Assembly (NCBI RefSeq): GCF_000337415.1
Contig: NZ_AOJD01000027.1
Location: forward strand, 87,606 to 139,215
Length of the DNA stretch: 51,610 nt
From: Halorubrum tebenquichense DSM 14210
GTDB lineage: Archaea > Halobacteriota > Halobacteria > Halobacteriales > Haloferacaceae
Reading direction: 5' to 3'
Part shown: in pieces, positions 1 through 30,986 of the stretch
How positions within the stretch are numbered: the first letter of the stretch is position 1
Layout of the letters: each line of letters starts with the position of its first letter
Translations under genes and position numbers: made by a program
The notes under the pieces: generated by a model
Seen by the model: the letters and a program-made list of their open reading frames with translations, nothing else
The model's database searches: none
What the model was told of the DNA's origin: nothing

Positions 1-20
1 GCGCTCGGAGAGCGCGAACC

Positions 21-235
21 GCGAGGCTGGGGAGGCGTGAGGTGCGGGGCGGGGAGGGACTCGAAGGGGCAGCCGGGCGGCGGGCGCAGGTGACGTAAGG
101 ACCACAGGAGCGAACGGAGTGAGCGACGAGGAGCGTGGTTCGAAACGGCTCCGCCGTTTCGTCATCACGAGACGCCGAAGGTGTCTCGAACGACAGCGAG
201 CGTGCGCCCGCCGCCCGGTTGGGGCTTCGGGAGTG
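21..235 (+). repeat. Dispersed GC-rich repeat, copy A
   Basis: This non-coding stretch matches a second copy in inverted orientation near 30591-30806. Blocks 22-47 and 56-75 are identical to the complements of 30781-30806 and 30743-30762, and the block near 199-230 (ending GGGGCTTCGG) matches the complement of about 30591-30622. Between the blocks sit two palindromes with 3-base loops: 141-161 (arms CGAAACGGC and GCCGTTTCG) and 168-188 (arms CGAGACGCC and GGTGTCTCG, one G-T pair). No protein-like frame with haloarchaeal codon use is apparent. The left end of the element may lie outside the window. Confidence 0.7.
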
Positions 236-316
236 TTCGTGTCGATCGGCGATTTATAAGCAGGATCACCATCGTACAGTCGCCCGGCTGAGGCTTCGGG
301 AGTGTTCGTGTCGATC
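212..316. repeat. Pair of 36-base direct repeats
   Basis: Bases 212-247 and 281-316 are near-identical (two differences in CGCCCGGTTGGGGCTTCGG versus CGCCCGGCTGAGGCTTCGG, then the same GAGTGTTCGTGTCGATC). They are 69 bases apart, and a TATA-like TTTATAAG (about 252-259) lies between them. The first unit is the end of repeat copy A, so the second is a local duplication of that end. Confidence 0.7.
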
Positions 317-401
317 AGTGACTCACGCAGTCACGACTACCCGGCAAGCGTCGCGAAAAAATGCGGATCTCGACGCGCGTAACGCGTCCTCTCGAACGCG
401 C

Positions 402-1001
402 TTACTCGAACAGTTCGACGGCCTGCTCGTAGCGGTCCGACGGTTCGTCCCAGTCGACGACCTCGAAGAAGTTGTCGACGAACTCGCCGCGGGCCGGGCC
501 GTAGTCGTGGTAGTAGGAGTGCTCCCAGACGTCGAGCGCCAGAATGGGGTGACCGCCCCAGACAGCGCCCTCGTCGTGGTTGTCGACCACGACGTTACGA
601 AGCTGATTCGAGAACGTGTCGTACACCAGAAGCGCCCAGCCGCTGGCCGCGGAGGCCGCCGCCTCGAACTCGCCCTTCCAGGCCTCGTACGAGCCGAAGT
701 CCTCCTCGATGCGGTCGGCCAGCGCTCCCTCGGGCTCGTCGCCGCCCTCCGGCGACATGTTCTGCCAGAACAGGTCGTGGAGGATGTGCCCCGAGGAGTT
801 GTGGGTCACGTTGCGGATGGCTCCGCCCGACGAAGAGAAGTCGTGCGAGTCACGGTTCTCTTCGAGCGTTTCCTCGGCGGAGTTCCAGCCGTTTACGTAC
901 CCTTGGTGGTGGGTATCGTGATGCCATTCGAGCACCTGCTCGGAGATGTGCGGTTCCAGCGCGTCGTAATCGTACGGTAGCGGATCGAGTTCGTAACTCA
1001 T
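402..1001 (-). CDS. sod: Mn/Fe superoxide dismutase
   Basis: Cytoplasmic superoxide dismutase converting superoxide to oxygen and hydrogen peroxide. The 199-residue length is normal for the Fe/Mn family. The N-terminal helical hairpin carries the first metal ligand (His27 in WHHDTHHQ) and His75 (HILHDLFW). The C-terminal domain supplies Asp157 and His161 in the signature LDVWEHSYY. Haloarchaeal enzymes of this type usually use manganese; the sequence alone does not settle the metal. The start is well supported: a Shine-Dalgarno-like AGGTGAT (minus strand, 1008-1014) lies six bases before the ATG. The gene stands alone, with tRNA-Ser upstream on the same strand. Confidence 0.96.
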   Translation of the reverse strand: MSYELDPLPYDYDALEPHISEQVLEWHHDTHHQGYVNGWNSAEETLEENRDSHDFSSSGGAIRNVTHNSSGHILHDLFWQNMSPEGGDEPEGALADRIEEDFGSYEAWKGEFEAAASAASGWALLVYDTFSNQLRNVVVDNHDEGAVWGGHPILALDVWEHSYYHDYGPARGEFVDNFFEVVDWDEPSDRYEQAVELFE

Positions 1002-30438: not shown

Positions 30439-30590
30439 ACTGCGTAGCTACGCTCAACGTGACAAATTCCTTGTGGAGAGGTGTGTCGGATTGTCGGTCG
30501 CTTCGTGGCTCGGTAGCTGCGAACTCGAATTCGCCACTTCGAACGCCCAGCCGCTCGCTACGACGCAGTCGCCGTCAACGGGACGACCGC

Positions 30591-30806
30591 CGAAGCCCCA
30601 GCCGCGAGGCGGGCGCACGCTCGGGGCGGTCCTCGCTCGGTCGCTTCGCTCCCTCCTGCGGTCCTACCGTCGTCGTCAGAACGCTCCGCGTTCTGATTGG
30701 CTCACGAGAGCTCGGCTTTCGTGAACGCCTGCGACCGCCTCGCGGCTGCCCCTTCGAGTCCCGCCCCACACCGCCCAGCACCGCACCTCACGCCTCCCCA
30801 GCCTCG
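30591..30806 (-). repeat. Dispersed GC-rich repeat, copy B (inverted)
   Basis: On the minus strand this 216-base segment has the same order of conserved blocks as copy A at 21-235: the block rc of 30781-30806, GGGACTCGAAGGGGCAGCCG (rc 30743-30762), GGACC-CAGGAG and GAGCGTGCGCCCGCC...GGGGCTTCGG. It contains two palindromes with 3-base loops, 30703-30723 (CACGAGAGC/GCTTTCGTG) and 30676-30696 (TCAGAACGC/GCGTTCTGA), whose sequences and positions differ from those of copy A. The wider gap 30439-31018 holds no recognised gene. Confidence 0.7.
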
Positions 30807-30876
30807 TCGACCGGTCTCGCTTCGCTCCGACCGGTCGACTCCCTCGCGCGTGCTGTCGCCGGCGCGTAGCGCCGGC
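30806..30876. repeat. Two strong palindromes next to repeat copy B
   Basis: GTCGACCGGT (30806-30815) and ACCGGTCGAC (30830-30839) form a perfect 10-bp stem with a 14-base loop. GCCGGCGC (30858-30865) and GCGCCGGC (30869-30876) form a perfect 8-bp stem with loop GTA. They could be terminators or part of the mobile repeat. Confidence 0.75.
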
Positions 30877-30986
30877 TGCCAGAGGGACCGGAGGCCCCTC
30901 GCTGTCTCGCGTCCTGCCGGGCGCTCACAGGCACGCGCCACCGTGAGAAATATTCGCTCGCCGACCACGCTTCCGCCTTCCAAGCC

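Follow-up and report, generated by a model that had tools for sequence, protein, structure and literature searches.

The 51,610-nucleotide stretch of the Halorubrum tebenquichense DSM 14210 genome analysed here (the window; contig NZ_AOJD01000027.1, positions 87,606 to 139,215) holds two copies of a dispersed repeat that is found throughout the class Halobacteria. We interpret this element as a non-coding, transposase-free repeat whose plus strand is folded, most likely as an RNA transcript about 300 nt long. There are no transcript data, and we put the probability of this reading at about 0.5. Its copy number, its fold, its strand polarity in Halorubrum, its fixed intergenic sites, the conservation of its core above the flanks, and the exchange, loss and inversion of its hairpin modules were observed.

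Architecture of the element and of its two copies in the window

The element begins with TTATAAAC-N-GAACT-GCGGTGGCGCGTGCC, followed by a hairpin and by GCACGCGCGAGGGA, which closes the first stem. A second 5' hairpin (GTCG...CGAC) leads to GAGGCTGGGGAGGCGTGAGGTGCGG and a G-rich linker, and then to the core (GGGACTCGAAGGGGCAG...CTGGGGCTTCGG). The core is a single long hairpin made of a CGAAG/CTTCG helix, a GGG x GGG internal loop that is invariant (54/54 copies), a variable stem and GCACC/GGAGC-type pairs; its terminal stem is built of 2-bp blocks separated by GA-rich internal loops. The tail comprises zero to several units of about 62 bp, each repeating the 3' arm of the core and often including TTTATAAG. 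G-tracts are conserved around the GGG x GGG loop (e.g., window positions 49-69 and 221-224), and a G-quadruplex is conceivable in the KCl-rich cytoplasm.

Copy A lies on the plus strand. It starts about 38 bases upstream of window base 1 (L001), with an N in the assembly intervening, and of the second 5'-domain hairpin only the 3' part remains inside the window (1-22). The block GAGGCTGGGGAGGCGTGAGGTGCGG with its G-rich linker follows at 23-55, supported by the alignment of copies, and the core hairpin at 56-230, supported by RNAalifold and pair counts. Within the core, CGAAG (62-66) pairs with CTTCG (225-229), GGG (67-69) faces GGG (222-224), and the long stem joins AGCCGGGCGGCGGGCGCA (71-88) to TGCGCCCGCCGCCCGGTT (203-220). 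Folded as a single sequence, this core has a z of -5.6. A double-hairpin module occupies 141-188. Its first hairpin (141-161) is a perfect 9-3-9 palindrome (141-149/153-161, loop TCC), and its second (168-188) is a 9-3-9 palindrome with one G.T pair (168-176/180-188, loop GAA). The tail (231-330) carries the TTTATAAG box at 252-259 and a second unit that repeats the 3' end of the core.

Copy B lies on the minus strand. In its 5' domain (30857-30943), GGCGCGTGC (30939-30931) can pair with GCACGCGC (30853-30846), and a reverse-complemented double-hairpin module is found at 30902-30857. The second 5'-domain hairpin (GTCGACCGGTC...GACCGGTCGAC) spans 30806-30839, and the conserved linker and core hairpin span 30591-30805, with the stem formed by 30747-30730 and 30617-30600. 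The core module (30676-30724) again consists of two hairpins. The one at 30724-30702 has 10-nt arms with one A.C mismatch and loop CGA (30724-30715/30711-30702), and the one at 30696-30676 is a perfect 9-3-9 palindrome with loop GGA (30696-30688/30684-30676). A degraded tail unit (GTAGCGAGCGGCTGGGCGTTCGAAG) ends the copy (30536-30590). Two occurrences of the 20-mer GGGACTCGAAGGGGCAGYCG fall within the window, a number equalled in 1 of 100 shuffles.

The preliminary description of this DNA had reported blocks shared in the same order by both copies, with palindromes 3' of CAGGAG in copy A and 5' of it in copy B. Direct reading bears out both points, the blocks being GAGGCTGGGGAGGCGTGAGGTGCGG, GGGACTCGAAGGGGCAGCC, CAGGAG, GAGCGTGCGCCCGCC and TGGGGCTTCGG. 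It had drawn both copies too short, copy A beginning before the window and copy B reaching about 30943. All four palindromes have the 3-base loops that it gave them; the 9-bp arms are perfect in two only, a third having one G.T pair and the fourth 10-nt arms with an A.C. It had overlooked the two further hairpins in the 5' domain of copy B, as well as the pairing of the outer blocks into a long stem in both copies. The duplication that it saw in the tail of copy A (212-247 and 281-316) is real and belongs to the tandem series of tail units found in many copies.

Copy number, distribution and genomic setting

The two copies known at the outset proved to be members of a large family. BLAST with copy A returned at least 86 matching stretches in the H. 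tebenquichense genome (40 of 183 candidates scored), and a search with GGGACTCGAAGGGGCAGYCG that allowed up to 3 mismatches gave 109 matches, compared with 6 for the reversed control. A set of 101 distinct anchor matches was fetched and oriented, one of which (L112) resembles a chance match. This draft genome thus has about 100 copies of about 300 bases each. In a complete congeneric genome (G022), at least 150 copies were found, about one per 20 kb (150/150 scored candidates with E <= 2.6e-16). When 292 Halobacteria genomes from 77 genera were scanned with a covariance model of the 119-nt core (R1), 218 genomes and 61 genera proved to contain the element, with copies per genome ranging from 1 to at least dozens; named Halorubrum species are among the carriers. 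In a phylum-wide sample, all 30 matching genomes belonged to the same order or closer, and no core was found outside the class. A plasmid search gave six partial matches, each in a haloarchaeal replicon, and a phage collection gave none. Rfam scans placed no family over the element at gathering score, and no published description of it was found by topic or by sequence string. Cores from other genera have the sequence GGGACTGAAAGGGGC...GGGGGCTTTCG and are frequently arranged in head-to-head pairs, some of them separated by only 31-36 bp. Contig ends C34, C38, C40, C56, C58 and C74 of the H. tebenquichense assembly (G000) and the N before window base 1 fall within copies of the element, indicating that the repeat probably breaks up the draft assembly.

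Among 84 copies with callable neighbours, 25 lie between convergent genes and 46 between co-directional genes, and the gene beyond the 3' end of the element points toward it in 56 cases vs. 28 (p = 0.003). Genes were called by a simple codon-score script, so these context counts are approximate. In the complete genome, 13 pairs of neighbouring copies are less than 3 kb apart and 10 of them are convergent (p = 1e-4 against 25%). Each close pair flanks one or a few ordinary genes, read as hisA, msrA, srp54 and cysS among others; no transposase was found in the segments between close copies, which hold housekeeping genes instead. Close pairs whose 3' ends face each other include 358928+/360386-, 1630372+/1632257- and 2665987+/2667819- on G022:C1, and L046 and L082 in the H. 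tebenquichense genome. The spacing of copies is more even than random, with 18 gaps below 5 kb against 33 expected.

About a quarter of the copies carry a TATA-like box at a fixed spacing, -25 to -16 relative to GGCGCG, with near-zero background, and a second one lies 20-34 nt past the core in 28 of 97. These boxes could be promoters or terminal repeats. We considered whether the 5' box is the promoter of the upstream gene and dropped the idea: where neighbours were callable, the upstream gene mostly points towards the TATA-bearing copies. Transcription starts about 25 nt downstream of a TATA box. The 5' box precedes the first stem by only about 20 nt, so a start at that distance would land just within the stem; this counts against the RNA reading, as do the boxes past the 3' end, with which the 5' boxes could form terminal repeats and not promoters. 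Where the box is retained, it may drive an RNA that would begin near GGCGCGTGCC and end near CTTCGG.

Base pairing, strand polarity and hairpin turnover

The fold is conserved while the sequence changes, as first proposed from two copies. In 54 cores of the H. tebenquichense genome, 98.7% of cells are paired and 25 of 35 pairs show two-sided changes. The covariation score is 0.443, compared with 0.150 for shuffled alignments (0/500 shuffles reach it). When the partner was slid by 1-3 columns, only 27-43% of cells paired and the covariation was at most 0.069. In 39 cores from other genera, no two stems are alike, and all four Watson-Crick pairs are seen at most positions. The shuffle control ignores the relatedness of the copies, no phylogeny correction having been applied.

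Isolated mismatches reveal a strand polarity. In 254 Halorubrum cores, isolated G.U outnumber A.C by 56 to 16 (p = 2e-6), and by 50 to 16 when distinct stems are counted (p = 3e-5); in other genera, the counts are 9 and 5, which is not significant. A strand-symmetric DNA process would give equality, so the excess points to selection acting on the plus strand, be it in the form of RNA or of single-stranded DNA. A folded plus strand is also favoured by the GA-rich internal loops and by the invariant GGG x GGG loop. Covariation above background together with single-strand polarity was our criterion for a structured RNA, and it is met, with the caveat about the shuffles. Taken together, the pairing, the covariation and the G.U excess suggest that selection acts on the plus strand in a folded, single-stranded form, most likely RNA.

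The long core stem covaries base by base; in the palindromes, much of the apparent change is wholesale replacement of hairpins and not base-by-base covariation of their arms. The 101 regions contain 49 perfect hairpins (arms of at least 8 bp) with a 3-nt loop, 33 of them with 9-bp arms, compared with at most 14 such hairpins for any other loop length and none with a 3-nt loop in shuffled sequence. Apart from the single hairpin of the 5' domain, hairpins tend to pair up into modules of about 45-60 bp with arms of 8-10 bp, which are found at a few recurrent positions within peripheral loops of the folded element. One module is common to L005 and copy B, at different sites and reverse-complemented in B. 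Hairpin alleles are common to several copies and are unlinked to the core stem or the inner hairpin, although the pairs are few and the evidence is weak. We infer that such unlinked sharing is expected from gene conversion between copies, with the conserved blocks as anchors.

Orthologous sites document gain, loss and inversion of whole hairpins. G313 lacks both big hairpins of its orthologue G137 and retains GAAAGCCCCTTTC, a remnant that matches slippage between GCCCC/GGGGC repeats, and the G318 orthologue keeps one hairpin of two. In L398, the G043 orthologue of copy B, the core interior is inverted between the stem arms, double-hairpin module included. These events and the allele sharing accord with the initial proposal of a recombining element. 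Identical conserved blocks on either side of variable hairpins would permit palindromes to be swapped, and whole hairpins may be replaced without loss of pairing through gene conversion between copies, slippage at GGGGC direct repeats, and inversion of the DNA that the stem arms enclose. The inverted core of L398 counts against the RNA reading, as a sequence-specific RNA should not tolerate inversion. In close species of genus g25, one intergenic site (L320 vs. L321, L323, L324 and L327) carries two hairpins, a single hairpin, only the inverted ends or no element at all, so that hairpin loss and gain can be followed there as a natural series.

Mobility, alternative explanations and known relatives

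The copy A site carries the element in about 10 Halorubrum species and lacks it in six more distant ones, and the copy B site carries it, in identical orientation, in about 13 of 30 inspected genomes, our own included. Across 16 orthologous pairs, mean identity is 0.86 for the core, 0.77 for other intergenic DNA and 0.91 for genes, and the core exceeds other intergenic DNA in 14 of the 16. The pairs were selected because the element is present in both members, and one self match was removed. Paralogues within the H. tebenquichense genome have a median identity of 78% and none exceeds 93%, so there is no sign of recent transposition. In genus g25, the element has inverted ends (AACACCACGAAAG...CTTTCGTGGTGTT) and shows presence or absence at one site, with no obvious target duplication by eye; the flanks of empty Halorubrum sites are too diverged to give exact boundaries or to reveal a target duplication. 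The mobility claimed in the preliminary description is therefore supported for the past and not for recent times. Site sharing, core conservation and paralogue divergence indicate an old family, once mobile, now mostly inherited in place and conserved above background. The element may have spread as a small mobile repeat mobilised in trans, and we infer that it now descends mostly vertically, its fold presumably maintained by selection. In other genera, some cores (L289/L308, L277) lie within a short element with ends TGTTCAGATAAG...CTTATCTGAACA that resembles a MITE of an unidentified transposon.

The main rival, a serious contender to which we give about one chance in three, is that the element is purely selfish DNA, a non-autonomous small mobile repeat whose single-stranded hairpin is recognised by a trans-supplied enzyme, without any RNA function. 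The inverted ends and the presence/absence site in g25 fit this explanation, as do the head-to-head core pairs of other genera. Tandem tails and inverted hairpins arise at the DNA level, and single-stranded DNA also tolerates G.T better than A.C. Against it stand the lack of recent duplicates, the long retention at orthologous sites with a core conserved above its flanks, and the failure to find an autonomous partner: tnpB is not one, and no gene was found between long inverted-end pairs in g25.

We regard it as improbable, but not negligible, that the pairing is a mutational artefact, in which template switching at quasipalindromes corrects one arm against the other and yields covariation without selection. 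Hairpin replacement, precise loss and inversion do indicate that the DNA forms hairpins. However, arm correction would remove mismatches, yet the GGG x GGG loop persists in all 54 cores examined and the GA-rich loops are kept; the process is also strand-symmetric and predicts G.U equal to A.C, contrary to the 56 vs. 16 observed.

The closest known elements are the transposase-free SMR and PATE repeats of Haloquadratum. SMR-A of Haloquadratum walsbyi is about 110 bp long, with prominent inverted terminal repeats, no transposase and a high copy number; its insertion targets are palindromes near the termini of IS605-type elements or PATEs, which it enters without target duplication, and its mobilisation is unexplained (Dyall-Smith et al. 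2011, PMC3119063). PATEs (palindrome-associated transposable elements) have ends in common with IS605 transposons and no inverted ends (PMC3119063). Our element resembles SMR-A in being haloarchaeal, in size and inverted repeats (the 119-nt core closes as one hairpin), in its high copy number without transposase, and in its setting in short palindromes (GAAAG-GGG-CTTTC). It differs in having no tnpB link, with no core near 30 tnpB loci, and in three features not described in PMC3119063: stems that covary in individual copies, retention at orthologous sites and a class-wide distribution. Because the test for IS605-type insertion failed, we do not file the element as SMR-A, although it works like the SMR/PATE group.

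Direct derivation from IS200/IS605 (TnpA/TnpB) transposons, as a PATE or an omega-RNA, appears very unlikely. The element shares with PATEs, known in Haloquadratum (PMC3119063), the absence of a transposase, terminal palindromes and an intergenic location, and its hairpin ends and class-wide haloarchaeal distribution would suit either origin. Ends shared with tnpA/tnpB elements were not found, only tnpB having been examined, and the g25 form has the inverted ends that PATEs lack. Moreover, tnpB matches number only 4 in the H. tebenquichense genome, compared with about 100 copies of the element, and one in G009, and the core model reached a best E of only 0.011 at the 30 tnpB loci.

Other repeat classes fit less closely. 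Like MITEs, the element is short, non-coding and of high copy number, with inverted ends in its g25 form, but no parent transposon and no obvious target duplication was found in g25, and the long folded core hairpin has conserved internal loops. REP/BIME and ERIC sequences are bacterial palindromic intergenic repeats of about a hundred copies, long retained; they belong to another domain and differ in size, whereas the present element is nested and modular, with stems unique to each copy. Covariation and G.U tolerance recall the structured RNAs of Rfam, from which the element is set apart by the missing gathering-score match and the lack of transcript evidence.

Decayed or hidden genes can be dismissed, as initially suggested: a GTG ORF (135-980, plus strand) does cross the 3' part of copy A, but it is antisense to superoxide dismutase (402-1001, minus strand), which adjoins the copy A site, the core lengths (111, 117-121 and 127) are not in steps of three and break any frame, and substitutions track base pairing.

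In the best-stocked haloarchaeal genomes, the element makes up about 1% or more of the DNA (about 300 bp x 100-150 copies in 3 Mb), and its covariation is on the scale of a major RNA family, though neither Rfam nor the literature searched includes it. Tentatively, and with the odds against it, the copies may constitute an undescribed class-wide family of structured RNAs that number from 1 to at least 150 in a genome and in many cases have their own promoter-like box, with interchangeable hairpin cassettes, selection at each locus and a shared cellular function at transcription-unit boundaries, such as bracketing single housekeeping genes. The hundreds of loci in dozens of species are natural replicates for the retention of a fold under sequence turnover and for hairpin gain, loss and inversion in archaea. 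The element also bears on the question of whether the intergenic repeats of archaea are selfish DNA or serve as functional RNAs.
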